From contig DWYZ01000093.1 in the NCBI GenBank assembly GCA_019118425.1, positions 1 through 32,316 on the forward strand: a stretch of 32,316 nucleotides of DNA, in the 5' to 3' direction. Origin of the DNA: Candidatus Blautia faecavium (GTDB taxonomy: Bacteria; Bacillota; Clostridia; Lachnospirales; Lachnospiraceae). This document shows, piece after piece, positions 9,955 through 31,382 of this stretch. The position numbers were made by a program, and so were the translations under genes. The notes under the pieces were generated by a model. That model was not told the DNA's origin and searched no databases. It saw only the letters and a list, made by a program, of their open reading frames with translations. How positions within the stretch are numbered: position 1 is the stretch's first letter; each line of letters starts with the position of its first letter.

Positions 9955-9981
9955 GTTACTAATCACACGATGACCAGTAAC
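9955..9981. repeat. Dispersed repeat, hairpin-only copy (downstream of clpC)
   Basis: A 27-nt inverted repeat whose GTTACT and AGTAAC ends match the first module of the repeat family at 20102, 23866, 26143, 30347 and 31360. It touches the clpC stop codon. No clear second or third module follows. Confidence 0.75.
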
Positions 9982-12443
9982 TATTTTTCTTCTCTGGACG
10001 TGACAAAACGGATTTCTTTTTTATGAAGCTGCACAGTCACCGTATCTCCCTGTTTGATCTTCCCTGCCAGGATTTCATTCGCCATAGCATCCTCGATCTG
10101 ATTCTGGATGGCGCGCCTTAAAGGACGGGCGCCATACTTACTGTCAAATCCAGACTGGGCAAGATGCTCCTTCACCGCGTTCGTCACCTTAAGTTCTATA
10201 TCCATCTGCTCCCTGCAGCGCTTCTGAAGCTGCTTTAGCAGGATGGTAACGATCTTCTTGATGTGCTCCTTGTTCAGGGCATGGAACACCATGATCTCGT
10301 CAATACGGTTTAAAAATTCCGGTTTAAACATGCGGCGCACTTCTTCCATAACGCCGGCTTTCATCCGCTCATAATCCTGTTTTTCATCTTCATTGGAAAT
10401 GAACCCCAGCCGCTTCGGTTCAATGATGGCCTGGGCTCCTGCATTGGAAGTCATGATGATGATCGTCTGTTTAAAGTCTACCTTTCGTCCATGAGCGTCT
10501 GTGATATGTCCATCGTCCAGTACCTGAAGGAGAATATTAAATACATCCGGATGCGCTTTCTCGATCTCGTCAAACAAAAGCACACTATACGGGTTTCGGC
10601 GTACCTTTTCGCTGAGCTGTCCGCCTTCATCATATCCCACATATCCGGGCGGCGAACCGATCAGCTTAGATACACTGTGTTTTTCCATATATTCAGACAT
10701 ATCCACACGTATCATTGCCTGCTCGCTGCCGAACACAGCTTCTGCAAGAGCCTTGGAGAGCTCGGTTTTTCCCACACCAGTAGGTCCTAAAAACAAGAAA
10801 GAACCTATCGGGCGGTTGGGGTCTTTTAATCCTACCCTTCCTCTTTTAACTGCCTGGGCCACTGCCCTTACCGCTTCGTCCTGTCCAATCACACGTTTAT
10901 GCAGTTCTTTCTCCAGATGGGCGAGGCGCTTCGTCTCCCCCTCTGTCAGCTTCTGCACTGGTATCTTAGTCCAGTCTGATACAATATCCGCCACGGAAGT
11001 CTCTGTGACAGTCAACGGTTTTTTCTTATTTTTCCGTTCGCAGCGCGCCTTTTGTTTTTCTATCTCTTTGTGTAGTTCCCCCTGACGCGCCTGTATTTCT
11101 CTTGCCTTTTCAAGATCCGCCTCACGGATGGCATCCTCTTTTTCTTTCAGCAGGGATTTAAGCTCCTGATCCAAAGCGTCCAGCTCCGGCGTGGATTTAT
11201 AGCCTGCGAGCTGCACCTTAGAAGAGGCCTCGTCAATGATATCAATGGCCTTATCCGGCAGAAACCGGTCATTTATATAACGCACTGACATTTTTACCGC
11301 AGCCTCAAGAGCCTCATCCTCTATCTTTACTCCGTGATGCTCTTCGTAGTAAGGCCGCAGGCCCTTCAGGATCTCCACCGCTTCCTCTTCCGTAGGCTCT
11401 TCTACCATAACCGGCTGGAAACGCCGTTCTAAAGCCGCATCCTTTTCAATATACTTCCTGTACTCTTCCAGAGTAGTAGCGCCGATCAGCTGTATCTCTC
11501 CTCTGGAAAGGGAAGGCTTTAAAATATTAGACGCATCCAAAGCTCCTTCCGCTCCTCCTGCACCAATGATGGTGTGAAGTTCATCAATAAAGAGAAGTAT
11601 ACCCTGATGCTCCCGTACCTCCTGTACTACATTTCGAATCCTTTCTTCGAATTCTCCGCGGTATTTGCTGCCAGCCACCATTCCGGAAAGATCCAGAACC
11701 ACCACTCTTTTATCTTTAACCGTATCCGGCACCATTCCTAAAACAATACGCTGGGCAAGTCCTTCCGCGATAGCGGTCTTTCCTACCCCCGGCTCTCCTA
11801 CAAGGCAGGGATTATTTTTGGTCCTGCGGCTTAGTATCTGTATCAGCCTGGCAATCTCTTTTTCTCTTCCCACTACCGGATCCAGCTTTCCTTCCCTGGC
11901 CATCTGCGTCAGGTCACGGCTGTACTGGTCAAGGGCGGGCGTGCCGGAAGCTCTTTTATTTCTTCCTGCTTTGGCGTTTTGAAATTCTTCGGTAATGGCC
12001 TCTCCGTCCATACCCATAGCGGATAAAACCGCTGCGTAAAGTTTCTGGATCTGCGCCCCCATAGTATATAAAAGTCTTGTGGCAACACAGTCCGTCTCTT
12101 TCAGCATAGCCAAAAGCAGATGCTCCGTACCTGCCTGGGCTTCGTGAAAGGATTCCGCCTCCCTGGCTGCTCCTTCCAGGATCTTTCTGGCTCTGGGACT
12201 ATATCCGGGAGTCCGTTCGGCAAGCAGAGTATCCGGAGGGGCGATCAGCTGATCGATCAGCGCCTCCAGGCGTTCTTCCTCCAGTCCGAACTCTTCCAGG
12301 ATCTTTCCGGCAGTGCCTTCCTTTTCCTTCATCAAACCTATTAAGATATGTTCAGTTCCCACATAATTGTGTTTCAGCGACTGTGCGGCTTTTTTCGCCA
12401 GCTCAAGGGCAGTTTCTGCCTGTCTGGTAAATTTTTCCTGCAT
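9981..12443 (-). CDS. clpC: ClpC, AAA+ unfoldase of the Clp protease
   Basis: HSP100 chaperone that unfolds proteins and feeds them to ClpP. The 820 residues contain two Clp-N repeats (1-145), the first AAA+ module with Walker A GEPGVGKT at 216-223 and the [11 protein letters not shown] segment, and a coiled-coil middle domain with a UVR-like motif ([15 protein letters not shown]). The second AAA+ module has [16 protein letters not shown] near residue 555. An LGF tripeptide (KRLGFISNE) occupies the ClpP-docking loop, and the D2-small domain follows. The middle domain identifies ClpC rather than ClpB. Unusually, ctsR, mcsA and mcsB are absent upstream and a YtrA-like GntR regulator sits 9 nt before it, so heat control may differ from the Bacillus arrangement. 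Confidence 0.97.
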
Positions 12444-12452
12444 AGTGTCCTC

Positions 12453-12830
12453 CTATCTGTCTATATAATATTCATCGAATATATTGTCAATGAGCTGATG
12501 CACTTCGTCCCTAGTCACATTCTTGCAGCATCCTCTTGCAAGAGCGACCAAAAGATTCTGCTTCATCTCCTCGAGCGCCTTTATCTTATCCGCATCAATG
12601 GATATGACAGCACCTCGTCTGCGGTCTATACTGACAAACCCCTCCTGGCGCAAAAGAGAATATGCCTTGTTTACCGTATGCATATTGATCCCTATGGTTT
12701 CTGCAAGCTGCCGCACCGATGGCAGCGGATCCCCCTCTCTCAGTCTGGATGTGGCTATTCCCATGATGATCTGATTTGTGAGCTGAATATAAATCGCTTC
12801 CTCACTGTTAAAATCTATTTTTATGACCAT
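12453..12830 (-). CDS. YtrA/YhcF-like GntR-family regulator
   Basis: Short transcription factor of 125 residues. The N-terminal winged helix contains IYIQLTNQIIMGIATSRLREGDPLPSVRQLAETIGINMHTVNKAY and the wing EGFVSIDRRRGAVIS. Only a short C-terminal helical tail follows, as in the YtrA subfamily, which lacks a large ligand domain. GGAGG lies 7 nt before the ATG at 12830; upstream in-frame codons look non-coding. It is the first gene of a two-gene unit with clpC. Two palindromes in front of it probably bind this protein, giving autorepression that would also set ClpC levels. YtrA-type proteins usually control ABC transporters, so the link to clpC is notable. Confidence 0.88.
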   Translation of the reverse strand: MVIKIDFNSEEAIYIQLTNQIIMGIATSRLREGDPLPSVRQLAETIGINMHTVNKAYSLLRQEGFVSIDRRRGAVISIDADKIKALEEMKQNLLVALARGCCKNVTRDEVHQLIDNIFDEYYIDR

Positions 12831-12861
12831 ACGGCAACCTCCTCCGTTGTTTCTTAAGTAA

Positions 12862-12876
12862 TGCACATAATGTGCA
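12862..12876. promoter_or_regulatory. Palindrome TGCACATAATGTGCA, probable GntR operator
   Basis: A perfect 15-bp palindrome 32 nt before the start codon of the GntR regulator. It is close to, but distinct from, the second palindrome at 12926-12952. Confidence 0.55.
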
Positions 12877-12886
12877 ATATCGGATC

Positions 12887-12935
12887 CCCGCAGCCACGCA
12901 GCAAAGGCATGATCTGGATCTGACATGCAACTATG
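12887..12935. repeat. Possible diverged third-module copy of the dispersed repeat
   Basis: Aligned without gaps to 23948-23996, about 35 of 49 bases agree, including CCACGCAGCA, TGACAT and CTATG, and most differences are transitions. It lies in the leader of the GntR-clpC unit. Chance similarity is not excluded. Confidence 0.35.
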
Positions 12936-12952
12936 TTATACATATAGTAGCA
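12926..12952. promoter_or_regulatory. Second palindrome over the GntR-clpC promoter
   Basis: TGCAACTAT (12926-12934) and ATAGTAGCA (12944-12952) form an inverted repeat with one mismatch. On the minus strand it covers a TATAAC -10-like box, with TTGATT as a weak -35 further up. It is a likely repressor site. Confidence 0.5.
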
Positions 12953-13017
12953 CATAATCAAAGTTTTGCAAGAAAAAATTTTTTCCTGTTTTTATCTTTC
13001 CAGCTTTTTTCTAAAAG

Positions 13018-13043
13018 AACAGGGCGGCTTCTGCCGCCCTGTT
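13018..13043 (-). terminator. Terminator downstream of mntP
   Basis: Eleven-base-pair GC-rich stem AACAGGGCGGC / GCCGCCCTGTT with a 4-nt loop, followed on the minus strand by CTTTT. It begins right after the mntP stop codon. Confidence 0.88.
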
Positions 13044-13044
13044 T

Positions 13045-13605
13045 TCAGCCTAATATTCCCAAATGTTCCAGAAGTATTTTTAATCCGATGAGAATCAGGA
13101 TCACGCCGCCTGCAATCTGTGCCTTTGCCCGAAAACGGCTTCCGAACACATTTCCGATCTTGATCCCTGCCACACCGAATACAAAGGTAGTACACCCAAT
13201 AAAGATCACGGCCGTGACGATATTTACCCTCAGAAAAGCAAAGGTCACTCCCACTGCAAGGGCGTCAATACTTGTTGCCACCGCAAGAAGAAGCATGGTC
13301 TTTACATCGAAGGAATCATCCAGGGATTCCCCTTCTCCCAATGCCTCCCGTATCATATTGATACCGATGATGGCAAGCAGCACAAAGGCGATCCAGTGAT
13401 CCACATTTACGATCACATTCTCAAACTGGCTTCCCAAAAGATAACCGATAGCCGGCATAAGTGCCTGGAATCCGCCGAAATATACGCCTGCCAGAATGGC
13501 ATTTTTCCATTTCATTTTCGGCATGGAAAGGCCCTTACAAATAGATACGGCAAAAGCATCCATAGATAATCCTACTGCAATCAGAAATAACTCTACAAAT
13601 CCCAC
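13045..13605 (-). CDS. mntP: MntP-type manganese efflux pump
   Basis: Integral membrane exporter of Mn(II), 186 residues, with six hydrophobic helices arranged as two repeats. Each repeat carries an intramembrane acidic signature: [14 protein letters not shown] near residues 12-25 (Asp16) and [13 protein letters not shown] near residue 110. The start is a GTG at 13605 preceded by a G-rich ribosome site. It follows the SseB-like gene by 14 nt and ends at a terminator, so it is the last gene of the alkD-like, SseB-like, mntP unit. No yybP-ykoY manganese riboswitch is visible, as there is no room for one in front of it. Confidence 0.93.
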
Positions 13606-13619
13606 TGCTGTCCCCCCTG

Positions 13620-14381: not shown

Positions 14382-14386
14382 TTTCT

Positions 14387-15103: not shown

Positions 15104-15114
15104 TTGTTGTAGCT

Positions 15115-15164
15115 GGTTACATGTAACCTTTGTTCGTTTTGGAACAGCAAGTACGACATGTAAC
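15115..15164. promoter_or_regulatory. Paired ACATGTAAC sites in front of the AlkD-like gene
   Basis: A perfect 14-bp palindrome, GGTTACATGTAACC (15115-15128), ends the leader 12 nt before the start codon. The core ACATGTAAC recurs at 15156-15164, 37 bp away. Between them lies GTTCGTTTTGGAAC (15132-15145). The arrangement suggests a repressor with two sites. It does not match the Gram-positive LexA box (GAAC-N4-GTTC). Confidence 0.5.
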
Positions 15165-15244
15165 GTTTATTCTCCTGTTGATCGTTTCAAATGCCTTTAC
15201 AGCAAATGCTTTTTTTATTTTATTATAAAACCTTCTAAAAGTAA

Positions 15245-15277: not shown

Positions 15278-15285
15278 ATAAGTTT

Positions 15286-16479: not shown

Positions 16480-16496
16480 CGCTGTTCTTCCTCCTT

Positions 16497-20101: not shown

Positions 20102-20165
20102 GTTACTGGTCGCCGTTTGACCAGTAACGGGAAATTTGGCATTTTAAATTCTCTTCGCGAAGCCA
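20102..20165 (+). repeat. Dispersed repeat, two-module copy (between aminopeptidase and purE)
   Basis: A 27-nt hairpin (20102-20128) with a perfect 10-bp stem, GTTACTGGTC / GACCAGTAAC. It is followed by the core GGAAATTTGGCATTTTAAA and a TTCGCGAA-centred stretch ending at the stop codon of the aminopeptidase gene. The third module is missing. Confidence 0.8.
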
Positions 20166-20170
20166 AAATC

Positions 20171-22219
20171 TTAGTTTTCAAAAGGAAGGTTCAATTCCTC
20201 TGTCCCCGGAAGGACGAAGCGGCCATTCTCAATAATGGAAACCATCTCCCCTTCCTCATCGATCACCCGGATACTGCCCAACTCTTCATAGGGAATAGTA
20301 ATATCTGTATGGCACCCATAATAAGCCAGGCTCAAATCCTCTTTTCGAAGACTGGAAATCTCGTTATCCCTAGCTATGATCTCTCTGCCGTCCGGATTAA
20401 ATACCGGCGTATCTTCCGCCCAGCTGTAGCAGGTGTCTCCCACAGCAAAATGAGGCCCCATCTTCTCTGCGATAAGGATCGGAAGCTTGTCCGCGATATT
20501 ATACTTTTTAGCCGCTACATAAGCTGTGGTGTTGGTGCCGATGGCAAACTCTCCCATAGGGATTTTTTCGTGATGGTGCAGGATATTGTCCTCTATATAT
20601 TTCCTGTTTTCTTCCTCATCCGGGAAATTTTCACAGGAATAGTCAATGACCTGTCCGCAGTCAAAGACCAGCTTGAGATCCTTGAACTGCAGGCCGTTTA
20701 GATAAACCTTTTTCACATGGAGCGTTCCCCCTGTACCCGCCAGGACCGGTGAGGTAAAAACTTCTCCCACCGGAATATTTACATCCGCCACGCAGTTTTC
20801 AAAATTCGTCTGTTTTTCAGGATCTGTAAGAGTGTGAAGATGAATAAGAAGGTCTGTTTCATTTCCGTCTTTTCCCTTTACCTCCACCCATTCACAGGTG
20901 TCTAAGGTTTCTATGATGGTCTGCTGGATCCGTTCGTAGAGCTTATAGTCCAGGGTATTGATCTTCACGATCTCCTGGAAAATCTCCGGGAAATTTTCTC
21001 CTATCTCCGGCACCGGATAGGCGATGATGGTAAAGCTTCTTTCATCCCCCTTAATATAACGGTTTACGATCTGACCGGATTCATTGTCCATCTCTACCAT
21101 AAGTTTTTGCTGTGCCTCACTAAGTGACCAGGCGTCCTTTTTACTCTCCGGTGAGAATGGTGCCTCCCCGAAAGTTTCGATACATGCCGGGCCCCCGTGG
21201 ACTTCTGCGAGCTCCTTATGCTTTTCATAAGCCGTCTGCATTGCGCGGAGCTTTCTTTTTATGAAATCCCCATCCAAAAACAAGGCACAGTCCTGCCTGT
21301 GGTCATAATCATACTGAGGATTGGGATTTCCTCCCGTAAAGCCTACTCTTGCCTGGCCCTTTTTATTTATGACGTGGGAAGCATGACGGTAGATCACCGG
21401 CTTAAGCCCCATCTCCTGAAACTTAAGCACCGCTGCTCTTACCATTCTCTCAAAGCCTAGCTGATAACGGATGTTTACTGTCTTTTTCTTTGTGATATCC
21501 TTTCTTCCATTGACAAAGCCGATCCGATACCCTTCCGTATAGGTACGGGCCATACTGTCTATCTGTTCCTGGGAAAGCGTATTTAAAAACTGAGCTACTC
21601 CTGTCTCATTGTCAGACACATATTCTCCATACCAGTACAGATATCTCAAGTCCGTAAGATCTGCCTCCATTACAATCTTAAGGGCAAAATCCTGCTCCGG
21701 GTCAATTCCCTCCAGGATTCTTTGTTCTACCATGTCCTGACAGTAATCATTTACATAGGAGGAAAGGATATCCTGTACTGTTTTCACTTCCGGAAGCTCC
21801 TCTGCACAAAACTCCCCGTAAATTTCTAAAAACAATTCCATAGAAACCAGAAGGTCCCACCATTTTTTTTCATATGCATAGGGAATCGCACCCCGCAGTT
21901 CCCCATATAAGAAAGTAAAGACCGGTCCGTATTCCCCTAATTTTTCCGCGGCATAAGAAGGATTTCCATAAGAAGTGCTGTAATTCTCAGGGAATAATTC
22001 CTGATAAAGCTCCCTGTTGCGCTTCTCAAGCTCTGAAAGCTCTGTCTTCCGTATATCTGTCTCAATCAGGTCCACCGTCTTTTGCAAAAAGTCTGCCGTT
22101 CTCTGGAAAAAATCCAGAAAAGGCGGCTTTACCTCTGTCTCTTCTTTCATCTCCCTGATCCTTTCCTTGGCCAGGGTATACCGTTCCATGATCCATTCGT
22201 CCACTGTCTTTGTCTCCAT
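20171..22219 (-). CDS. M29-type metallo-aminopeptidase with long N-terminal extension
   Basis: Cytoplasmic peptidase of 682 residues. The C-terminal 370 or so residues follow the M29 (AmpS/PepS) pattern. Metal ligands and catalytic residues appear at Glu486 (VGEVFTSP), Glu557 (MGEFAIGTN), His590 and Tyr598 (HFAVGDTCY), and His637 and Asp639 (CHTDITIPY). M29 enzymes are normally about 400 residues; here about 300 extra residues precede the fold, rich in helices and aromatic residues and not recognised by me. No signal peptide is seen. It follows the HD gene by 16 nt and is the last gene of the group starting at 23841. A weak ribosome site precedes the ATG. Confidence 0.8.
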   Translation of the reverse strand: METKTVDEWIMERYTLAKERIREMKEETEVKPPFLDFFQRTADFLQKTVDLIETDIRKTELSELEKRNRELYQELFPENYSTSYGNPSYAAEKLGEYGPVFTFLYGELRGAIPYAYEKKWWDLLVSMELFLEIYGEFCAEELPEVKTVQDILSSYVNDYCQDMVEQRILEGIDPEQDFALKIVMEADLTDLRYLYWYGEYVSDNETGVAQFLNTLSQEQIDSMARTYTEGYRIGFVNGRKDITKKKTVNIRYQLGFERMVRAAVLKFQEMGLKPVIYRHASHVINKKGQARVGFTGGNPNPQYDYDHRQDCALFLDGDFIKRKLRAMQTAYEKHKELAEVHGGPACIETFGEAPFSPESKKDAWSLSEAQQKLMVEMDNESGQIVNRYIKGDERSFTIIAYPVPEIGENFPEIFQEIVKINTLDYKLYERIQQTIIETLDTCEWVEVKGKDGNETDLLIHLHTLTDPEKQTNFENCVADVNIPVGEVFTSPVLAGTGGTLHVKKVYLNGLQFKDLKLVFDCGQVIDYSCENFPDEEENRKYIEDNILHHHEKIPMGEFAIGTNTTAYVAAKKYNIADKLPILIAEKMGPHFAVGDTCYSWAEDTPVFNPDGREIIARDNEISSLRKEDLSLAYYGCHTDITIPYEELGSIRVIDEEGEMVSIIENGRFVLPGTEELNLPFEN

Positions 22220-22838: not shown

Positions 22839-22853
22839 TCTTTCCTCCTAACT

Positions 22854-23168: not shown

Positions 23169-23625
23169 AATATTTTCTCCTCAGGTAATCGCAGACTGCA
23201 AAGGCCAGATACCCCAGCGCCGCGCCAAGCGTATTTAAAATCAGATCATCCACATCAAAACAGCCCACCTTCGTCACAAGCTGTATGGTTTCCACACATA
23301 AACTCAGGCCAAAGCCGGAAAGAATGATCAAAAAACCGCTTCTAAGTCCATTGTGGATCACCGGAAGAATAAAACCATAGGGAATAAACCCCAGGACATT
23401 CCCGATCAGATTTGTAAAAAGAGCGAATACTCCCAATTGTTCCCGGTATATCCAAAATCTCCTGATTTCCACAAAAGGAACCAGATTATACCGGTACTCC
23501 CTCTCAGCCTCTGCCACTCGTCCATATCCTTCTGAAAAGAAAAGCAGATACATAAGAAGCAGTACATAGATAACAAAAAGGAATACCCCTGTTTTTCTGA
23601 TGATGCGTTTCGTTTCTTTCTTCAA
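23152..23625 (-). CDS. VanZ-family membrane protein
   Basis: Integral membrane protein of 157 residues with four hydrophobic segments. VanZ family marks are the N-terminal basic/hydrophobic helix, NLVPFVEIRRFW after the first segment, NLIGNVLGFIPYGFILP in the second, and TKVGCFDVDDLILNTLGAALGY near the end. The namesake gives low-level teicoplanin resistance, but most chromosomal relatives have no known role and this one has no resistance genes around it. The start is TTG at 23625 with a GGGGAGA site in front. A 30-bp perfect palindrome lies 25 nt upstream. Confidence 0.9.
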   Translation of the reverse strand: MKKETKRIIRKTGVFLFVIYVLLLMYLLFFSEGYGRVAEAEREYRYNLVPFVEIRRFWIYREQLGVFALFTNLIGNVLGFIPYGFILPVIHNGLRSGFLIILSGFGLSLCVETIQLVTKVGCFDVDDLILNTLGAALGYLAFAVCDYLRRKYYGKKI

Positions 23626-23650
23626 TATTCTCCCCTATTTCAAGCCGCCC

Positions 23651-23680
23651 AGAAGCCACAGGAGATCTCCTGTGGCTTCT
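23651..23680. repeat. 30-bp perfect palindrome between the 50-residue gene and VanZ
   Basis: Fifteen bases (AGAAGCCACAGGAGA) followed at once by their exact reverse complement. In RNA it forms a very stable hairpin. There is no T tract on the minus strand, so it is not a typical terminator. Confidence 0.8.
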
Positions 23681-23688
23681 GAACCCTT

Positions 23689-23841
23689 TTATAACAATAT
23701 ATCCGTCTTTCTTTTTATGAGCTTCGCGCCGTTGACGATCATAAGGATCCCTGCAACAATTCCCGTCACAAGAACAATAATACCAAGTGCAAGATTGCAC
23801 GCTCCGGACTTGGACATGGTTTTATAAATCTTTTCATTCAT
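23689..23841 (-). CDS. 50-residue single-pass membrane peptide
   Basis: Small gene, well supported by a GGAGG site 8 nt before the ATG. The product starts MNEKIYKTMSKSGACNLALG and has one hydrophobic helix (about 16-38, with IIVLVTGIVAGILMIVNGA). It ends in a basic tail, KLIKRKTDILL. A positive C-terminus suggests the tail stays in the cytoplasm. No family is recognised with certainty. It sits between the repeat at 23866 and the 30-bp palindrome. Confidence 0.72.
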   Translation of the reverse strand: MNEKIYKTMSKSGACNLALGIIVLVTGIVAGILMIVNGAKLIKRKTDILL

Positions 23842-23865
23842 GTACCGATCCTCCTTTTATGGTTA

Positions 23866-23996
23866 GTTACTGGTCACACATTGACCAGCAACGGGCAATT
23901 TGGCATTTAAAATCCGCTTTAGTCAAATTGCCTGTTGAATCATCTGGCCCGTAACCACGCAGCAGGTGCGTGGTTCGGGTGTGACATATATCTATG
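23866..23996 (+). repeat. Dispersed repeat, full three-module copy (after pyrE)
   Basis: Module 1 is a 27-nt hairpin (23866-23892). Module 2 is GGCAATTTG (23894-23902) pairing with CAAATTGCC (23924-23932). Module 3 is a stem with AACCACGCA / TGCGTGGTT around a 5-nt loop (23948-23979), with the tail GTGACATATA. It starts 1 nt after the pyrE stop codon (read on the minus strand) and fills the gap to the 50-residue gene. Confidence 0.88.
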
Positions 23997-23997
23997 A

Positions 23998-24672
23998 TTA
24001 TTCTGCGCCATATTGCTGGTAATATGCGTCAATCGCCCCTTTAAGCGTATCGTCGATGATAACTTTCCCCTTATATTCTTTATTATAGAGATGCTCCACC
24101 ACCTCAGCCATGGTTACAATGGCGGTGGTGCGAAGGCCGTAAGTCTCTTCTATCTCTTTTAAGGCGCTTTTCGTGCCCTGCCCCCGCTCCATACGGTCTA
24201 CAGATACTACCAGACCCACTGGCTGTACCTCTCCCTGTGCCTTTATGATCGGAAGAGTTTCCTGAATAGAAGTTCCCGCTGTAGTCACATCTTCAATGAT
24301 GACCACCTTATCCCCATCCTCAATAGGACTTCCCAAAAGAATTCCTTTGTCTCCGTGATCCTTTACTTCTTTACGGTTAGAACAATAGCGGATGTCTTTT
24401 CCGTATTCTTCGCTGATAGCCATGGTCGCTGCGACAGTAAGGGGGATTCCCTTGTAGGCCGGTCCGAATAAAACGTCAAAATCCAGGCCGAATTTGCTCT
24501 CAATGGCCTTTGCGTAATACTGCCCCAGCTTACGCAGCTGAGCGCCGGTACGATAAAAACCGGTATTTACAAAAAACGGCGTCTTTCTTCCAGATTTCGT
24601 AACAAAATCTCCGAACTTCAATACATTGCAGTCGATCATAAATTCAATAAATTCTTTTTTATACTGCTCCAT
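23998..24672 (-). CDS. pyrE: Orotate phosphoribosyltransferase
   Basis: Joins orotate and PRPP to give orotidine 5'-phosphate. The 224 residues contain the PRPP loop VVIIEDVTTAGTS (about 123-135), the substrate region KSGRKTPFFVNTG near the start and FGPAYKGIPL at 69-78. It stands apart from the other pyr genes, with its own promoter at 24765-24793 and a leader of about 86 nt; the secreted hydrolase lies between it and pyrD. A repeat copy follows right after the stop codon. Confidence 0.97.
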   Translation of the reverse strand: MEQYKKEFIEFMIDCNVLKFGDFVTKSGRKTPFFVNTGFYRTGAQLRKLGQYYAKAIESKFGLDFDVLFGPAYKGIPLTVAATMAISEEYGKDIRYCSNRKEVKDHGDKGILLGSPIEDGDKVVIIEDVTTAGTSIQETLPIIKAQGEVQPVGLVVSVDRMERGQGTKSALKEIEETYGLRTTAIVTMAEVVEHLYNKEYKGKVIIDDTLKGAIDAYYQQYGAE

Positions 24673-24764
24673 CTTTCTAAAACCTCCTGTATTTGTGGGC
24701 GCATCCCCGATTTTTTCTCTGTATTCTTATATAAACAGCCTTGCACCAAAACTTTTTCCTTTCA

Positions 24765-24793
24765 ATTCTACCATAAGTTTTCTACATTTTCAA
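24765..24793 (-). promoter_or_regulatory. Promoter of pyrE
   Basis: On the minus strand, TTGAAA (24793-24788) and TAGAAT (24770-24765) are 17 nt apart. The leader of about 86 nt shows no clear attenuator. The stretch 24794-24914 holds only the upstream gene's terminator. Confidence 0.7.
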
Positions 24794-24846
24794 TTGAGGC
24801 TGTTTAAAACTTTTCATCAGAAACGCCCTAAAGGTTCCGAAAGAAA

Positions 24847-24893
24847 CGAACGGCGCCTGCCGTCTCCTTATAAAAGGAGCGGGCAAACGCCGT
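24847..24893 (-). terminator. Terminator of the secreted hydrolase gene
   Basis: CGGCG..TGCCG..CTCCTT pairs with AAGGAG.CGGGCA..CGCCG around a 4-nt loop, with small internal bulges. It lies 21 nt after the stop codon. T-rich sequence follows on the minus strand only weakly. Confidence 0.7.
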
Positions 24894-24914
24894 TTGATTT
24901 TTTCCTCTTACTGC

Positions 24915-25904
24915 TTATTCCATATTTTCTTCCCAAAAATCCACCGCATTCTCAAGCCATCCTTCCGCCACGGTTTCCTCTCCCAGCCCGAATCCATGGG
25001 GAAGGCCTTCAAAAACCTCCACCTGCGCAGGCGTACCGTTCTCCTGGATCCTGCTGATGTAATCCTCCACAGTACGGTAATAGGCAATCCCATCGCTGGT
25101 TCCCACACAGGCGTAAGTGGGCGGCTCATTTCCTGTCACATCAGAAAGCCCGGTATACTCCATAACCACTGCCGCCGGGGCAGGATAAGCATCCTCTCCA
25201 AAGGCTTCCGTACCATATGAGCCAAGCCATGCCGCCATCCTGGCTCCTGCCGATCCACCCCAGAGGGAATAGTCTGTCACATCCACATCCAGCTCTTCCT
25301 GATTTTCAAAGATAAAAGCGATCGCCCTGGCCAGATCCTCACAGGCAGTCTGCGCGCCTGGACGGTAGATCAGCACGAAGGCATTGTAGCCTTTTTTTGA
25401 CAGTTCCAATGCCTGGGGAAAGCTGTCGTGCATAGCAGCCACATAGGCAAAACCTCCCCCTGCATTTACCACTGCGAATTTCTCTCCGGGATCTCCGCGG
25501 AAGAAAAACAATCCCGTATTTTCCTTATCCGGATCCTCCGCTTTTTCTTCCTCTGTGTAAATATCATAAAAAATCTGCTCTCCCTCTTCCGCCTGTTCTT
25601 TCATATAATTCACGATCTCCACAGTACGTTCGGGATTTACATAATTGTACCAGGTAAGGATATCTCCCACATCCTTTAACTCCAGATCCGGATCTATCGT
25701 CTTGTCTGCCGGAAAGATCAGCCTTCCGAACCCCTCGAAATCCGGGTCTTCGATCACATCCATCACTTTTGTGTTTTCGGTCACGCCTGTCATCTCCTCT
25801 GCATACACCGGCCTGCCCCCTCCTGCCAGAGCAAGAAGGATAAGAAAGCAGGACGGCAGCAATCCTTTTCTTTTTATCTGATCAAATATTTTCCCAAGTT
25901 TCAT
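24915..25904 (-). CDS. Secreted alpha/beta hydrolase (esterase/lipase-like)
   Basis: Probable extracytoplasmic esterase of 329 residues. A signal peptide is clear: basic KIFDQIKRKG, hydrophobic LLPSCFLILLALAGGG, cleavage after VYA at about residue 35; no lipobox Cys is placed for a lipoprotein. The hydrolase core has an oxyanion-like NAGGG near 147-151, the nucleophile Ser218 in GGSAG, Asp271 in GTSDGIAYY and His303 in LPHGFG. The spacing fits the BD-FAE/esterase group. I chose the ATG at 25904, 6 nt from GGAGG; the ATG at 25907 is too close. It is a single-gene transcript. Confidence 0.82.
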   Translation of the reverse strand: MKLGKIFDQIKRKGLLPSCFLILLALAGGGRPVYAEEMTGVTENTKVMDVIEDPDFEGFGRLIFPADKTIDPDLELKDVGDILTWYNYVNPERTVEIVNYMKEQAEEGEQIFYDIYTEEEKAEDPDKENTGLFFFRGDPGEKFAVVNAGGGFAYVAAMHDSFPQALELSKKGYNAFVLIYRPGAQTACEDLARAIAFIFENQEELDVDVTDYSLWGGSAGARMAAWLGSYGTEAFGEDAYPAPAAVVMEYTGLSDVTGNEPPTYACVGTSDGIAYYRTVEDYISRIQENGTPAQVEVFEGLPHGFGLGEETVAEGWLENAVDFWEENME

Positions 25905-25948
25905 CATACACCTCCGTTTTTGGTCCACACCATTTTAAACTTTCCCCT

Positions 25949-25977
25949 ATTATAAAGCAGATAATTTTCCAGTTGAA
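25949..25977 (-). promoter_or_regulatory. Promoter of the secreted hydrolase gene
   Basis: On the minus strand, TTCAAC (25977-25972) and a consensus TATAAT (25954-25949) are 17 nt apart. The 25978-26077 stretch above it shows nothing further. Confidence 0.65.
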
Positions 25978-26077
25978 GAAACAATAAGTTCTTGTGTTAA
26001 TACCTTGGGGTTCTAAGTCATTTTATCCAAAACAGTTCTCATCAGAAATACTCTCGTCCCATGCTTGTCTGTCAAGT

Positions 26078-26114
26078 AAAAAACGGCGCTGGTTCTCTTT
26101 CCAACGCCGTTTTA
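26078..26114 (-). terminator. Terminator of the pyr operon
   Basis: On the minus strand, AAAACGGCGTTGG pairs with CCAGCGCCGTTTT around an 8-nt loop and is followed by T's. It lies beyond the repeat copy that follows pyrD. Confidence 0.88.
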
Positions 26115-26142
26115 CCTGATTTTCCTTAATCGTTTTTGTCTT

Positions 26143-26271
26143 GTTACTGGCCACACGGTGACTAGTAACGGCAATTTGGCATTTAAAGTTCGCTTCGCTT
26201 TAGTCAAATTGCCTGTTGAATCATGCTGGACCGTAACTACGCAGCAAGTGCGTGGTTCAGGTGTGACATAT
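26143..26271 (+). repeat. Dispersed repeat, full three-module copy (after pyrD)
   Basis: Hairpin 1 is at 26143-26169 (GTTACT / AGTAAC ends). Module 2 is GGCAATTTG (26170-26178) pairing with CAAATTGCC (26205-26213). Module 3 has AACTACGCA / TGCGTGGTT with a GCAAG loop and the tail GTGACATATA. It lies between the pyrD stop codon and the pyr terminator, so it is transcribed at the operon end. Confidence 0.88.
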
Positions 26272-26275
26272 AACT

Positions 26276-27181
26276 TTATCTTACTGTTCCGATCAATTCC
26301 TGAATGTCTTCCACCTGCTCCTTTTCCATGAATTCCCGGATTCCTTTTACCACTTCCACGGTAGCGTAAGGATTAAAGAAATTTGCCGTTCCTACCGACA
26401 CGGCTGTGGCTCCTGCCATGATAAACTCCAGTGCATCCTCTGCTGTGGATATCCCGCCCATACCGATGATCGGAAGGGAGACTGCGTTTGCCACCTGATA
26501 GACCATGCGCACTGCCACAGGTTTTACCGCCGGTCCGGACATTCCGCCGGTTTTATTGGCAAGGGCAAAGGTTCTTTTATGGATATCGATCTTCATCCCT
26601 GTAATGGTGTTTATAAGAGACAGTACGTCCGCGCCCCCCTCCTGGGCAGCCCTGGCCATCTCTGTGATATCTGTCACATTTGGACTAAGCTTCATGATAA
26701 CCGGCTGCTTCGCATATTTTTTTACCTCTTTGGTAATGGCAAGAAGGGCCGCAGGGTCCTGTCCGAAAGCAATCCCGCCCTCTTTTACATTAGGACAGGA
26801 TACGTTGATCTCCAGCATATCTACCGGTTCATCGCCCAGGCGTTCCACCACTTCACAGTAATCCTTCGTACTTTTTCCGCATACATTGACAATGATCTTT
26901 GTATCAAACTTTTTTAAAAAGGGGATATCCCTTTTGCAGAATACGTCTATGCCGGGATTCTGAAGACCAATGGCGTTCAGCATGCCGCCCCAGGTCTCAG
27001 CCACACGGGGAACAGGATTCCCTGGCCAGGGTACATTAGCCACTCCCTTAGTCACTACGGCTCCGAGGCTGTTCAGATCCACAAACTCACTGTATTCTTC
27101 TCCGGAGCCAAAGGTACCGGAGGCTGTCATGACCGGATTTTTCAGCTGCACACCAGCTAAATTTACGCTCATCTTACTCAT
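26276..27181 (-). CDS. pyrD: Dihydroorotate dehydrogenase, class 1B catalytic subunit
   Basis: FMN enzyme oxidising dihydroorotate to orotate; class 1B forms a complex with PyrK and uses NAD. The 301 residues show the FMN site (MTASGTFGSG, VVTKGV with Lys45), LNAIGLQNPG, the active-site Cys129 in INVSCPNVKEGG (Cys rather than Ser marks class 1) and MGGISTAEDALEFIMAGATAVSVGTANF. The ATG at 27181 follows GGAGG by 7 nt and overlaps the pyrK stop (ATGA). The residues encoded further upstream belong to pyrK in another frame. Confidence 0.96.
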   Translation of the reverse strand: MSKMSVNLAGVQLKNPVMTASGTFGSGEEYSEFVDLNSLGAVVTKGVANVPWPGNPVPRVAETWGGMLNAIGLQNPGIDVFCKRDIPFLKKFDTKIIVNVCGKSTKDYCEVVERLGDEPVDMLEINVSCPNVKEGGIAFGQDPAALLAITKEVKKYAKQPVIMKLSPNVTDITEMARAAQEGGADVLSLINTITGMKIDIHKRTFALANKTGGMSGPAVKPVAVRMVYQVANAVSLPIIGMGGISTAEDALEFIMAGATAVSVGTANFFNPYATVEVVKGIREFMEKEQVEDIQELIGTVR

Positions 27182-27960
27182 AGCTCTACCTCCGTGCTTA
27201 AAAATACCGGACCGTCCTTGCACACGCGTTTATTGTGCACATGGGAATGGGCGTCTACATCCTTGGATCTGCACACACAGGCAAGGCAGGCGCCTACACC
27301 GCAGGCCATACGTTCCTCCATAGAAATCCAGCAGGGGATTCCCTTTTCCAGAGCATACGCCTTTAAGGCCCGAAGCATGGGCGCAGGGCCGCAAGCAAAG
27401 ATCAGATCCGCTTCCAGATGATTTTCCCGGATGGCATCCAGTACATTTCCTTTGGTTCCGGCGCTTCCGTCCTCTGTGGCAACGTATACCTTTCCGTAAA
27501 GTTCGAATTCTTTATTTAAAAACAGCTCGTCCCTGTAGCCCAGGATAATCTGTTTTTCTCCCTGGAATTGTTTCGCTGTTTCCAGCATAGGGGGAATACC
27601 GATTCCTCCTCCTATTAAAAAGACCTTTTTCCCCTTCCCTTCCTCTAACGGGAAGCCGTTTCCTAAAGGTCCAAGGGTTTCTATCGCCACCTTTGCATGA
27701 AGGCGGGAAAAGCCCTCTGTCCCGGTGTTTTTTCCTGTAACTCTGTATACCAGGCGAAGGGACTTCTGTTCTTTATCAATCTCACAGATACTGATGGGAC
27801 GGGGAAGCAGTTTGCTTCCATCCCTGGTATATAGAGAGACAAATTGTCCGGGACGGGCGTTCTGTGCTATTTTTTCAGTTTCCAGCCACATGCTGTATAT
27901 ATCTGTGCCGATACATTCCTGGCTGATGATCCTGCAGCTTTCTTTCGTCTTTTCCTGCAT
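27178..27960 (-). CDS. pyrK: Dihydroorotate dehydrogenase electron-transfer subunit
   Basis: Carries electrons from PyrD to NAD through FAD and a [2Fe-2S] cluster. The 260 residues have an N-terminal FAD barrel (LLPRPISICE), the NAD domain (FLIGGGIGIPPMLETAK) and a C-terminal cluster loop. The loop ligands are Cys220, Cys225, Cys228 (MACGVGACLACVC) and Cys247 (VCKDGPVF). Start at 27960, with GGAGG close upstream. The 68-nt gap from pyrF contains hairpins like those before purD. Its stop overlaps the pyrD start. Confidence 0.96.
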   Translation of the reverse strand: MQEKTKESCRIISQECIGTDIYSMWLETEKIAQNARPGQFVSLYTRDGSKLLPRPISICEIDKEQKSLRLVYRVTGKNTGTEGFSRLHAKVAIETLGPLGNGFPLEEGKGKKVFLIGGGIGIPPMLETAKQFQGEKQIILGYRDELFLNKEFELYGKVYVATEDGSAGTKGNVLDAIRENHLEADLIFACGPAPMLRALKAYALEKGIPCWISMEERMACGVGACLACVCRSKDVDAHSHVHNKRVCKDGPVFLSTEVEL

Positions 27961-28028
27961 TTTTTCCTCCTTCTGACGCAGCTTACTCACGGAGTACGTT
28001 GGCTGCGCCAAACTTCCAAAATCTCCTC
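27961..28028 (-). repeat. Intercistronic hairpin before pyrK, similar to that before purD
   Basis: The minus strand has TTTTGGAAGTTTGG soon after the pyrF stop, GGCGCAGCC pairing loosely with AGCTGCGTC around a loop, and GCGTCAGAAGGAGG just before the start. The purD gap (17772-17843) has the same landmarks in the same order. Confidence 0.6.
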
Positions 28029-28955
28029 CTAGCGGCTGGACAGAGCGTGATCAATGTCCTCGATCATGTCTTTTACTGCCATACGGGATGCTTCCCCATA
28101 ATTTTCTTCACCTGCAGAAGCATATTTTTCCTGTTTATATGCGGCAATGATCCCTCTGGAAGAATTCACAATAGCCCCAAGTCCATCCTCATTGAAGAAA
28201 TGGACCAGATCTGCTCCTTTTCCTCCCTGGGCGCCGTATCCCGGTACCAGGATAAAGGTCTTTGGCATAATCTTGCGAAGCACCTTGCCCATCTCCGGAT
28301 AGGTTGCTCCCACTACTGCCCCTACATAGCTGTAGCTGCCGCCCATATGCTCTTCTCCCCACTGGGCAACTTTTTCTCCTACCCACTCATAAAGAGGGCG
28401 TCCGTCAATCATGCGGTCCTGGAACTCTCCGCTTGAAGGATTAGAGGTTTTTACCAGAATGAACAGGCCTTTCTTTTCTTCCTTACAAACATCTATAAAG
28501 GGCTTTACTCCATCAGATCCAAGATAAGGATTTACCGTAGCAAAATCTTCGTCAAATCCGGCATAAGATCTGCTTCCCACCTGGACATGTCCCAGATGTC
28601 CCACTGCATACGCTGCTGAAGTGGAACCGATATCTCCCCTCTTAATGTCGCCGATCACAATAAGATCTTTTTCTTTACAATAATCAATCGTCTTTTTATA
28701 TGCCATAAGTCCCGGAATGCCGAACTGTTCATACATAGCAATCTGCGGCTTCACCGCCGGGATCAGGTCGCAGGTGGCATCCACGATTCCTTTATTAAAC
28801 TGCCAGATGGCTTCTGCCGCGCCCTCCAAAGTCTCTCCGTACTCTTTAAAAGCACGTTCCAAAATCTGAGACGGAATGTAGCTAAGCATAGGATCCAGTC
28901 CTACCACTATGGGCGCATTTGTCTTTTTGATCTTGTCAATCAATTTGTTGATCAT
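28029..28955 (-). CDS. pyrF: Orotidine 5'-phosphate decarboxylase (long subfamily)
   Basis: Last step of UMP synthesis. The 308 residues match the longer PyrF subfamily of Clostridia and mycobacteria rather than the 240-residue type. Motifs are IVVGLDPML (16-24), the catalytic tetrad region IGDIKRGDIGST (Asp103, Lys105, Asp108) and the phosphate loop LVPGYGAQGGKG. GGAGG lies 7 nt before the ATG. It is second in pyrC-F-K-D. Confidence 0.97.
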   Translation of the reverse strand: MINKLIDKIKKTNAPIVVGLDPMLSYIPSQILERAFKEYGETLEGAAEAIWQFNKGIVDATCDLIPAVKPQIAMYEQFGIPGLMAYKKTIDYCKEKDLIVIGDIKRGDIGSTSAAYAVGHLGHVQVGSRSYAGFDEDFATVNPYLGSDGVKPFIDVCKEEKKGLFILVKTSNPSSGEFQDRMIDGRPLYEWVGEKVAQWGEEHMGGSYSYVGAVVGATYPEMGKVLRKIMPKTFILVPGYGAQGGKGADLVHFFNEDGLGAIVNSSRGIIAAYKQEKYASAGEENYGEASRMAVKDMIEDIDHALSSR

Positions 28956-29004
28956 AAGGTTTTCCTCCGGATTTCGTTTGTATTTTTATTTTATATCTTG
29001 TCTT

Positions 29005-30294
29005 TCAGGCGTTTTCGTATGCAATCTTACTGTCGCAGATAGTATACAGAACCTTGCCCTTTACCTTTTTGCCATGGAAAGGCGTGTTTTTCCCTTTAGA
29101 GGCGAAGGCATTTTTGTCAATGGCATATTCATCTTCCACATTGACTACGATCACATCTGCCGGATGTCCCTCCTGAAGGGTTCCGCTATCAAGTCTTAAG
29201 ATCTGCGCAGGGTTCCAGCACATTTTTTCTACCATCTGAAGAGGTGTAAGGATACCTTTTTCCACAAGCTCTGTGTACGTAAGCGCAAGGCTGGTCTCAA
29301 GCCCTACGATCCCAAAAGCTGTATTTCTCATAGAACCGGTCTTATCTTTCGCCGTATGGGGAGCGTGATCTGTGCTGATCACTTTAATATACCCTTCCTT
29401 TAATCCCTTTATCAGGGCATCCACATCTTCCCTGGCGCGCAGGGGCGGATTCATCTTATAATTGGGATCATCTCTCGGGATATCGTCTGATGTAAGGGTA
29501 AAATGGTGTGGGCAGACTTCCGCTGTGATCTGCTTTCCAAGTCCCGCCTCTTCTACATACTTCATCATCTTTGCCACTCCTCTTGTGGAACAATGGCACA
29601 GATGCAGACGAGCCCCTGTCTCCACAGCAAGCAGGATGTCTCTCGCTGCAATAACATCCTCTACAGAATTGCAGATTCCCGGCAGGCGGAGACGTTCTGC
29701 GTTTTTATCCTCGTTCATACACCCATTTCCCCGCAGATCGATATCCTCACAGTGGGCAAACACCGGAATCCCACATTCTGCCGCGATCTTCATGGCATCT
29801 TTATAAACGCGGCTGTTCATCACTGACTTTCCGTCCTCAGAAAGAGCCGGTATCCCTGCCCTGGCCATTCCCCAGATATCTGCCAGTTCTGTTCCATTCT
29901 CGCCTTTCGTAATGGCTCCGGCCTGCAGGACATGGATGCCGGAAACCTGAGCCGCTTTATTATGAACATAATTTACCCTGTCTGGATTATCAATGACAGG
30001 GCTGGTGTTCGGCATTGCCACTACAGTGGTCACTCCGCCATGTGCTGCCGCTTGAGAACCTGTTTCGATATCCTCCTTATCCGTCTGTCCCGGATCACGC
30101 AAATGCACATGCAAGTCAATGATGCCAGGCATGACGAGACATCCTGCGGCGTCTATCACCCGATCCGCCAGCTCCTCCATCTCAATGTGTTCTCCTATCT
30201 TCCGGATCACTCCATCTTCCACATACACATCGCCTGTCATGTCCGTATTTGTGGCCGCATCAAGAATACGGCCTCCGCGAATCAGAATACCCAT
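29005..30294 (-). CDS. pyrC: Dihydroorotase (class I)
   Basis: Zn-dependent ring closure of carbamoyl aspartate to dihydroorotate. The 429 residues fit class I. Metal ligands are His62 and His64 (DLHVHLRDPGQ), Asp153 (LSEDG, the bridging residue in class I), His181 (FAHCED) and His234 (LCHCSTRG); Asp309 (STDHAPHT) is the catalytic Asp. AAGGAG precedes the ATG at 30294 by about 9 nt; upstream in-frame codons run into the repeat-bearing leader. It is the first gene of the pyr operon, with a TTGACT-17-TATGAT promoter. Confidence 0.96.
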   Translation of the reverse strand: MGILIRGGRILDAATNTDMTGDVYVEDGVIRKIGEHIEMEELADRVIDAAGCLVMPGIIDLHVHLRDPGQTDKEDIETGSQAAAHGGVTTVVAMPNTSPVIDNPDRVNYVHNKAAQVSGIHVLQAGAITKGENGTELADIWGMARAGIPALSEDGKSVMNSRVYKDAMKIAAECGIPVFAHCEDIDLRGNGCMNEDKNAERLRLPGICNSVEDVIAARDILLAVETGARLHLCHCSTRGVAKMMKYVEEAGLGKQITAEVCPHHFTLTSDDIPRDDPNYKMNPPLRAREDVDALIKGLKEGYIKVISTDHAPHTAKDKTGSMRNTAFGIVGLETSLALTYTELVEKGILTPLQMVEKMCWNPAQILRLDSGTLQEGHPADVIVVNVEDEYAIDKNAFASKGKNTPFHGKKVKGKVLYTICDSKIAYENA

Positions 30295-30329
30295 GTCAAC
30301 ATACTCCTTCCAGATATTATTTTTTCCCT

Positions 30330-30373
30330 TAAATGCCAAATTTCCAGTTACTGTTCACCACGAGACCAGTAAG
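30330..30373 (-). repeat. Dispersed repeat, two-module copy in reverse orientation (pyr leader)
   Basis: On the minus strand, a 27-nt hairpin (30373-30347; arms match the family with a few changes) is followed by GGAAATTTGGCATTTAA, the same core as in the other copies. It lies inside the 5' leader of pyrC, between promoter and ribosome site, opposite in direction to the copies at 20102, 23866 and 26143. Confidence 0.8.
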
Positions 30374-30399
30374 TGTTTCTTTTTGGCTGATATGAATTT

Positions 30400-30428
30400 A
30401 TCATACACGAAAACCCCTGTTTAGTCAA
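30400..30428 (-). promoter_or_regulatory. Promoter of the pyr operon
   Basis: On the minus strand, TTGACT (30428-30423) and TATGAT (30405-30400) are 17 nt apart. Transcription would begin near 30393, giving a leader of about 100 nt that contains the repeat copy. The stretch 30429-30560 holds nothing I recognise. Confidence 0.75.
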
Positions 30429-30564
30429 ACCTTCCCGTCAATATCCTCTCCTCTTTTTCTTACTTAAACAATGCAATCTTCCTTTTCCGCTAATCCATTG
30501 TTTTCTCCTGTTTCGCCTTAAATGACTATTCTTCATTTTTTCGTCCAAACAATTCAGAATAACC

Positions 30565-30593
30565 TTGACAATTTATTTTCACAGATATATAAT
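30565..30593 (+). promoter_or_regulatory. Consensus promoter of the cold-shock gene
   Basis: Perfect TTGACA (30565-30570) and TATAAT (30588-30593) with a 17-nt spacer. The leader of about 134 nt is AT-rich and can pair AAATCAC (from 30624) with GTGATTTTTT (from 30675). Confidence 0.9.
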
Positions 30594-30733
30594 CAGAATA
30601 TAACCTATATTGTTTAATACAAAATCACTAGTTTTTAGAGATTATATATTACATGATATAGTCTGTAAAATCTGGTGATTTTTTATCGTCAGAGAACATT
30701 TTAATCTTTTTTTATTTTTATGGAGGTAACATC

Positions 30734-30934
30734 ATGAACAATGGAACTGTAAAGTGGTTCAATGCAGAAAAAGGATATGGTTTTATCACAGGCGAAGACG
30801 GAGCAGATGTTTTCGTACACTTTTCTGCAATTAACGGAGAAGGCTTTAAGTCTCTTGACGAAGGTCAGGCCGTAACTTACGACTTAACAGAAGGCGCTCG
30901 TGGAATGCAGGCTGCTAACGTTACTAAATTATAA
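30734..30934 (+). CDS. Cold-shock protein (CspA family)
   Basis: RNA-binding chaperone of 66 residues, a single five-stranded cold-shock domain. RNP1 is KGYGFI and RNP2 is VFVHF; the N-terminal [18 protein letters not shown] is typical. A GGAGG site lies 8 nt before the ATG. With a perfect promoter and a long AT-rich leader it is likely to be abundantly made and controlled after transcription, as for other csp genes. It is the only plus-strand gene in the right half and ends at a strong terminator. Confidence 0.97.
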
Positions 30935-30981
30935 GAGTATCCCCAAGGGAGACCTTAGCCGCATCACCAATTAACAAACAC

Positions 30982-31009
30982 AAAAATCCCCGGTTTTCCG
31001 GGGATTTTT
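30982..31009 (+). terminator. Terminator of the cold-shock gene
   Basis: Twelve-base-pair stem AAAAATCCCCGG / CCGGGGATTTTT with a TTTT loop and a T-rich end. Its symmetry would let it also end the leftward transcript of the 84-residue gene. Confidence 0.92.
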
Positions 31010-31072
31010 ATGTGGGTAGATTCTCCCTTCAGGAAACAGCCGATTTCCTTGGAGGAGAATTTTTATATTTTT

Positions 31073-31327
31073 TTATTCTGCCGTATCCTGGGAAAGAGAG
31101 GAAAGGTAATTATCCAGCGCGCTGGTGTCCATAACGGTTTGAAGCACTGTCGCCTCCTGCCCCTCTGTAGCCTTATCATATACAGAGTAACCAATCCAGC
31201 ATACGATTACAAGACCAACAATCAATGCCGCCAGCTTTTCCAGCCTTAAAGCCATCTTTTCTTTTTTCATGATTTTATCGCGGTTTGCTTTTTTCTTCTT
31301 ATATTCATCTACTTTTTTCTGGCTCAT
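31073..31327 (-). CDS. Small single-pass membrane protein of unknown function
   Basis: An 84-residue protein. A very basic N-terminus (MSQKKVDEYKKKKANRDKIMKKEK) is followed by one hydrophobic helix at about 32-48 (LAALIVGLVIVCWIGYSVY) and an acidic C-terminal part ending SSLSQDTAE. By the positive-inside rule the tail faces outside. The ATG at 31327 has AAGGAG about 7 nt upstream; further upstream in-frame codons cover a promoter-like TATAAT (31429-31424) and a repeat-like hairpin and are not coding. No family is recognised. Confidence 0.7.
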   Translation of the reverse strand: MSQKKVDEYKKKKANRDKIMKKEKMALRLEKLAALIVGLVIVCWIGYSVYDKATEGQEATVLQTVMDTSALDNYLSSLSQDTAE

Positions 31328-31359
31328 GATCAATCTCCTTTTGTACCCATAATAAAGTC

Positions 31360-31382
31360 TTACCAGCCATACGGTGACCAGT
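31360..31382. repeat. Decayed hairpin copy of the dispersed repeat
   Basis: Read on the minus strand, ACTGGTCACCGTATGGCTGG with the following TAA matches the corresponding part of the copy at 26143 with about four changes in 23 bases. It lies in the leader of the 84-residue gene. Confidence 0.5.

Follow-up and report, generated by a model that had tools for sequence, protein, structure and literature searches.

The cyanobacterial small dispersed repeats are very small mobile hairpins, about the size of the 27-bp solo form described below, and BOX and RUP of pneumococcus are modular small interspersed repeats, with RUP resembling a miniature inverted-repeat transposable element (MITE). BOX and RUP are covered in a review of prokaryotic MITEs (PMC10969869) and in PMC3049150, and the bacterial MITEs MITEPsy1 (PMC3189936) and QMITE2 (PMC10969869) were used here for comparison. 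Singlets of the repetitive extragenic palindromic (REP)/REPIN sequences have also been interpreted as remnants of a larger unit (PMC3116915, where the cyanobacterial repeats are mentioned too), and ISDge4, of the single-ORF (open reading frame) ISBst12 group of IS66, has the ends GTGACTACTCAGCA/GTAACTGCTCAGCA, an 8-bp repeat and an observed transposition (PMC12898284). Here we describe a family of palindromic repeats in a stretch of 32,316 nucleotides from Candidatus Blautia faecavium (contig DWYZ01000093.1 of GCA_019118425.1; hereafter, the window), which an earlier note on this DNA had taken for a mobile or recombining REP/MITE-like element or an RNA processing signal.

The element is a MITE, of a structured variant. 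It is short, gene-less and multicopy, with terminal inverted repeats and a fixed target duplication of 8 bp, and its intact form of ~127-133 bp is too short for a transposase gene; the AT-richness typical of MITEs is absent, since the interior G+C of two window elements is 0.45 and 0.48 against 0.454 for the window. Taken together, the evidence makes it very probable that this ~130-bp gene-less structured element with IS66-type ends has been inserted by an ISBst12-like transposase acting in trans and is often deleted to a solo palindrome of 27 bp.

The terminal inverted repeats are GTTACTGGTCAC on the left and GTTACATGTCAC on the right (GTTACTGTTCACAC in relatives), and the pair GTTACTGGTCACAC / GTTACATGTCACAC is identical at 12 of 14 positions. 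An alignment of 30 copies with their flanks gives the order palindrome GTTACTGGTCACACGGTGACCAGTAAC, hairpin GGGCAATTTGGC...GCCAAATTGCC, connector, hairpin around ACGCAGCAAGTGCGT and end GGTGTGACATGTAAC, with 8-bp direct repeats directly outside both termini. In 34 copies of the host genome, with the right end set by sequence alone, the duplications agreed at 8 of 8 positions in 19 copies, at 7 in 8, at 6 in 5 and at 3 in 2, which places 27 of the 34 at 7-8 of 8 where ~1.06 was expected from cross-paired flanks (0.5 for 8, 0.5 for 7). When the right flank was shifted by 1-3 bases either way (six offsets), none of the 34 reached 7 of 8. A wider set, in which the duplication helped to choose the ends, gave 52 of 68 at 7-8 of 8 (36 exact, 16 at 7). 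Among the full host copies at 7-8 of 8, position 2 of the duplication is A in 22/29 and position 7 is T in 22/29. Duplications of 8 bp at exact ends are what a staggered-cut (DDE-type) insertion leaves behind. The left end is at the same time the 27-nt hairpin, in which the terminal repeat faces an inverted copy of itself, and therefore the internal arm and the right end form a direct repeat of ~12 bp about 100 bp apart (internal arm GTGACCAGTAAC, right end GTGACATGTAAC; the repeat comprises two 5-bp blocks that are identical, separated by two letters that differ). The following pieces of the family lie in the window:

23866..23992, forward strand: complete element of 127 bp, with its left hairpin at 23866-23892.
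23858-23865 and 23993-24000: target duplications of the 23866 copy, TATGGTTA and TATGATTA, 7/8 identical.
26143..26274, forward strand: complete element of 132 bp, with its left hairpin at 26143-26169.
26135-26142 and 26275-26282: target duplications of the 26143 copy, TTTGTCTT and TTTATCTT, 7/8 identical.
9955..9981, no strand assigned: solo 27-bp form, left palindrome only, with exact 8-bp duplications TATTTTTC at 9947-9954 and 9982-9989.
20102..20188, forward strand: truncated copy with left palindrome and hairpin 2 (BLAST match to 20167, covariance model to 20188).
30329..30373, reverse strand: truncated copy with palindrome 30347-30373 and core, upstream of a pyrC-like gene.
31359..31385, no strand assigned: decayed solo palindrome, in which 7/24 arm bases differ and no duplication is visible.
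12887..12931, forward strand: right-end fragment with hairpin 3 and the right terminal repeat (45 bp, 75.6% to consensus, E 0.001 with the window alone searched).

The shared 27-nt hairpin was confirmed at all six positions reported earlier (9955, 20102, 23866, 26143, 30347 and 31359, with 3, 2, 2, 2, 3 and 7 mismatches among the 24 arm bases, respectively), so that five copies carry two or three mismatches and the last one seven, whereas 20 dinucleotide shuffles of the window (forward strand) gave no 27-mer with ≤7 arm mismatches. The fragment at 12887-12931 is a seventh piece, absent from the earlier list. The modular make-up also stood: the copies at 23866 and 26143 are complete, those at 20102 and 30347 end within or after module 2 (the former lacks hairpin 3 and the right end), that at 9955 is a clean solo and that at 31359 a decayed one. 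Several copies touch genes, whose names were read from ORF translations and not from a database. The stop codon of a pyrE-like gene (23998-24000) and that of a pyrD-like gene (26276-26278) lie inside the right duplications of the 23866 and 26143 elements, respectively, and the stop codon of a clpC-like gene (9981-9983) meets the solo at 9955. The mechanical ORF of the pyrC-like gene (window 30291-30339) starts at a TTG at 30339, inside the truncated element; the true start is likely further in, and annotation may count element DNA as coding.

The window is one contig (C295) of a draft genome of 3.5 Mb in 318 contigs, 91.7% complete, and the family extends well beyond it (loci, genomes and contigs of the comparison are given below as L, G and C numbers). 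The core AATTTGGCATTTAA occurs exactly 26 times in the host genome and its reversed control not at all, and the palindrome, with ≤2 mismatches allowed, was matched 64 times on the forward strand and 66 times on the reverse, two counts that overlap because a palindrome is visible on both strands, against 0 for the control. The full element gave at least 40 matches at E≤1e-19 (the best 40 of 135 candidates were scored), spread over many contigs. These counts show a genome-wide family and dispose of a purely local duplication, the outcome that the earlier note had named as fatal to its proposal.

Outside the host, the full element of this species had a match in 1/61 genomes, the host itself, and in 0/36 other genomes of the host genus, which makes a conserved host use unlikely. 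The palindrome was found in 20/397 Lachnospiraceae genomes; 15 stretches of GTDB genomes have it too, among them those of Murimonas intestini DSM 26524, an Eisenbergiella metagenome-assembled genome (MAG) and the rumen MAG RUG12263. Many of these loci have an element of ~130-157 bp, flanked by an 8-bp duplication, whose left end the palindrome forms. One Murimonas copy (L165:213-351, G310 C3:349012-349150) is 139 bp long and has GTAAC-type ends, an exact 8-bp duplication and the type A interior described below, unlike the other copies in that genome, which are mostly of type B with GTTAC ends. Plasmids held no match for two element types and phages none for the own-species element; viral contigs held one matching stretch. 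Five unannotated 'Bacteriophage sp.' records from human feces (MT836813.1, MT838670.1, MT839053.1, MT839183.1 and MT839976.1) carry pieces of the Murimonas-type element, covering 25-33% of the query at 86-95% identity, and perhaps indicate a way of spread.

The shorter forms are best read as internal deletions of the full element, like solo long terminal repeats (LTRs), and not as a mixing of independent parts. We classed 149 palindromes, in which one site is counted twice (L109 = L139, class 'neither'), as 68 full, 24 solo (at least 6/8 duplication bases) and 57 neither; two of the 24 solos carry 6 arm mismatches and possibly arose by chance. Among the 81 palindromes that are not full, 19 have duplications at 7-8 of 8, where 0.36 was expected. 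Murimonas (G310) holds forms of 27, 40, 42, 59, 61, 106 and 142-143 bp that retain ends and duplications (6-8 of 8). Slippage between the ~12-bp direct repeats would delete the interior and leave the 27-bp palindrome inside the old target duplication, a remnant that would be analogous to the solo LTR of an LTR element; the 'nearly precise excision' of Tn10 is a parallel to such a deletion of the interior. The forms of 61 bp stand at separate places (L125, L163 and L167 in Murimonas, L154 on a viral contig) with similar junctions near TCGCG, and they reflect either a recurrent deletion or a 61-bp form that moves by itself.

Exact duplications also flank 9 of the 81 non-full palindromes (0.17 expected), and solos flanked in this way also turn up where a genome has just one palindrome listed, as in G368 (L106) and G397 (L114), which would be seen if the 27-bp palindrome were itself mobile by means of its two back-to-back terminal repeats and the longer forms were composites. 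We consider this improbable. Slippage in either 5-bp block would give mixed letters at the block-flanked positions, while transposition of the palindrome would give internal-arm letters only; of the 14 host solos, read by hand, 6 have right-end letters, 5 internal-arm letters and 3 are undecided, and the 6 with the right-end letters of the full element thus derive from full copies. The intermediate forms of 40, 42, 59, 61 and 106 bp also speak against a mobile palindrome, and 27 bp is, as a matter of general knowledge, very short for the pairing of two ends. As short extragenic palindromes present in many copies and both orientations, the repeats do look like REP/REPIN sequences moved by a RAYT (Y1 transposase), but such movement is not expected to make target duplications, and both the 8-bp duplications at exact ends and the sharing of these ends with DDE-type insertion sequences (ISs) leave this explanation with almost no probability. 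The MITE-like half of the earlier reading is therefore borne out by the terminal repeats and duplications, whereas the REP-like half is lost to those duplications and to the palindrome being one end of a larger element.

Insertion sites bear on a different possibility, that the repeats serve the host at gene ends, in regulation or RNA processing, and are no parasites. Of 50 host copies with duplications of at least 6/8, 49 lie outside mechanical ORFs of ≥90 aa. After five were dropped for missing flank, position inside an ORF or overlap with an ORF start (two in C237 and one each in C302, C134 and C200), 19 of 45 lay ≤15 bp from a stop codon, which favours a role at gene ends (9.2 expected for uniform placement in the same gap, P 5e-5; 11.6 expected if starts are avoided, P 0.0014), and 2 of 45 lay ≤15 bp from a start (8.2 expected). 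However, full host copies between co-directional genes show no sense bias (7 sense and 15 antisense by hand count), which leaves RNA processing unsupported as their primary nature, and a terminator-like structure was present at the site in 4/50 cases (no control set), a count on which the terminator T-tract was also rejected as the target. A host element is therefore highly improbable, and under the MITE reading insertions would survive mainly between genes, often near stop codons.

In the interior of the element, a TGAATCA-type connector joins a bulged hairpin to a hairpin whose loop is of the GCAAG type. Two designs of the interior occur: type A in the window, G285, G438, RUG12263 and others, and type B, with a three-way junction, in Murimonas, G170, G340, G420, G005 and apparently also G111 (a cut copy). 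RNAalifold found double changes in 16/30 pairs of 20 type A elements and in 8/43 pairs of 15 type B elements. The covariance model R1, built on the type A interior from 13 sequences, matched in 45 of 397 Lachnospiraceae genomes, of 41 genera (E≤0.001, a threshold at which ~0.4 false genomes are expected); with at most nine candidates scored per genome, copy numbers are lower bounds. Pairing was evaluated in 35 R1 matches, almost every one from a genome of its own (of 36 sources, L118 gave no match). In this alignment 94.3% of cells pair, compared with 60.7% after shuffling and 27-40% after sliding, double changes occur in 24/26 pairs (shuffled mean 19.7) and in 299 cells (84 in shuffles), and the covariation score is 0.81 against 0.18, figures to be read with the model-fitted alignment in mind, since the fit favours pairing. 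'Further standard pair types' were weakly above shuffles in this alignment, and against our reading is one test in which they were not above them (480/500 shuffles were at least as high). The interior is conserved as structure, and conservation is higher in unpaired columns than in paired ones (0.75 and 0.62), with loop, bulge and connector letters that persist across genera.

At 28 of 30 R1 loci (host and G285 were excluded), with ends chosen without the duplication, 25 have terminal repeats at ≥9/12 (best of 40 positions, a few by chance) and 17 have duplications at 7-8 of 8 (0.7 expected); GTTAC, GTAAC and GTATC types all occur among the ends. At four loci (L223, L229, L246 and L247; a comparison made in part from a 24-locus set) the left arm diverges from the right end and yet pairs with its own inner arm, so that the hairpin itself is what has been preserved at this end, whether through selection or through templated correction.

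The interior probably has a structured role all the same. The compensatory changes could stem from templated repair of imperfect palindromes during replication, by which both arms change together without selection on the fold; the left hairpins that still pair are what this process predicts, as does the other, but templated repair would leave unexplained why unpaired columns are the more conserved and why loop, bulge and connector letters persist, and we regard it as a rather doubtful account of the covariation. It is a tentative proposal that the interior fold is a working RNA or single-stranded DNA module that the element requires to be recognised, to be mobilised or to reside safely at gene ends, kept in at least 41 Lachnospiraceae genera while the ends switch between GTTAC and GTAAC. 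Least certain in the mechanism is the step by which a requirement of the element for the fold, in RNA or single-stranded DNA form, would account for its retention. In hairpin 2, the inner stem (window 26188-26205 and many host copies) reads TTCGCTTCGCTTTAG instead of TTCGCTTCGCGAAG, so that CTTT becomes a potential partner of the bulge AAAG and the inner stem may be re-paired in the host species. A pseudoknot between the connector and the loop of hairpin 3 was inspected by eye and not upheld, and Rfam gave no match to the element (whole window at the gathering threshold; window 23600-26600 to E 5; L135, L122, L103, L091 and L105 to E 1).

The earlier note had also called for a transposase with matching ends, and such enzymes were found in other Lachnospiraceae genomes but not in the host. 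Among the matches to the IS66 domain, L189 bears the terminal repeats GTTACTTTTCACGGGGTGGGGAA, and relatives of its protein occur in 20/397 Lachnospiraceae genomes (E≤1e-15). Related ISs end in GTTACTGTTCACACCC (L192 left end; both ends of L196, which begins at a contig end), GTTACAGTTCACACCC (L199), GTTACCATTCACGGGG (L194) and GTTACTGTTCAGGGGG (L191), GTAAC-type ends are present in L202, L204, L206 and L208, and exact 8-bp duplications surround L192, L194 and L199. The IS66 DDE domain (PF03050) is above cut-off in L189, L192, L194 and L206, and the NCBIfam transpos_IS66 match is below it (137 of 180 bits). These ISs are ~2.0-2.4 kb long, and L192 and L194 have one long ORF of 558-581 aa, other small ORFs not being excluded. 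Since these single-ORF IS66 (ISBst12-like) elements of Lachnospiraceae have the same ends and duplication length as the MITE, their transposase is the likely mover: an IS66-family DDE transposase would cut the GTTAC/GTAAC ends in trans and insert the element with an 8-bp stagger. Longer IS terminal repeats of the form TTCACGGGGTG (L190:304-330, L191:1297-1320, L194:899-920) make a small palindrome in the same place as the end hairpin of the MITE.

Several observations weigh against this explanation. The IS and the MITE share only ~12-16 end bases, no clean duplication was found at L190, L191, L193 and L198, and neither an empty site nor movement was seen. A profile search of the 20 palindrome genomes detected no such transposase in the host draft genome or in Murimonas. 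The L189-type protein (E≤1e-15) is present in 3/20 palindrome genomes (~1 expected) and in 2/45 genomes with the interior model (~2.3 expected); there is no clear co-occurrence of mover and elements. The same profile search found the transposase intact in G111 only, partial in G426 and as fragments in G005, G340, G368 and G420, with none in the other 14. We infer that mobilisation lay in the past or was cross-mobilisation, and that the mover has mostly been lost or has escaped recognition. In G005, of the genus of the host, L215:1501-1632 matches the IS66-like transposase profile over 44 residues (E 5.7e-18) and is perhaps a trace of a lost mover. The MITE interior gave two weak matches (E 0.047 and 0.14) in 33 loci of IS66-like ISs. 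Other candidates were rejected: IS256 transposases (PF00872; matches in 4/8 genomes) had no matching end pair in 11 loci, strong IS66 copies (PF03050, L180-L186) had no matching ends within the flanks examined, and the ORFs enclosed by a 1.4-kb end-like pair in Murimonas (G310 C1:237406-238827) were not transposase-like by eye.

The group is large in the Lachnospiraceae, a family of gut bacteria, and apparently undescribed: no description was recognised in the accessible parts of the open-licence literature on its end sequences, on Lachnospiraceae MITEs and structured RNAs, on IS66 with MITE and on ISBst12, and IS66 has no occurrence in the prokaryotic MITE review (PMC10969869). By the interior model, this bacterial MITE superfamily reaches 45 of 397 sampled genomes of a major gut family, and its candidate mover belongs to the little-studied ISBst12 group of IS66. 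The solo forms illustrate how deletion can reduce a larger element to a very small repeat that still sits within its target duplication, and other tiny palindromic repeats may have the same explanation. With the covariation, selection for a nucleic-acid fold on a gene-less transposon becomes a testable idea, and if the interior fold is indeed needed by the element, it would be a new kind of structured DNA parasite.

With BOX and RUP the element shares the character of a modular small repeat, while sequence, host, ends and duplication differ, and the small form that recalls the cyanobacterial repeats is explained here as a deletion remnant of a 130-bp element. Like REP/REPIN sequences (PMC3116915), the repeats are extragenic palindromes found in many copies and both orientations, but they have 8-bp target duplications and DDE-type ends and form no doublet of equal palindromes. 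The ISBst12 group (ISDge4, PMC12898284) has the same ends of the form GT(T/A)ACTG.TCA(C/G) and the same duplication of 8 bp; those ISs are autonomous, whereas the MITE shares only their terminal repeats. Bacterial MITEs such as MITEPsy1 and QMITE2 are likewise short, gene-less and multicopy, with terminal inverted repeats, target duplications and mostly intergenic positions. The element differs from them in its one self-paired hairpin end, in an interior structure that is kept across genera, in its very short deletion forms, and in ends that match those of IS66/ISBst12-like ISs.

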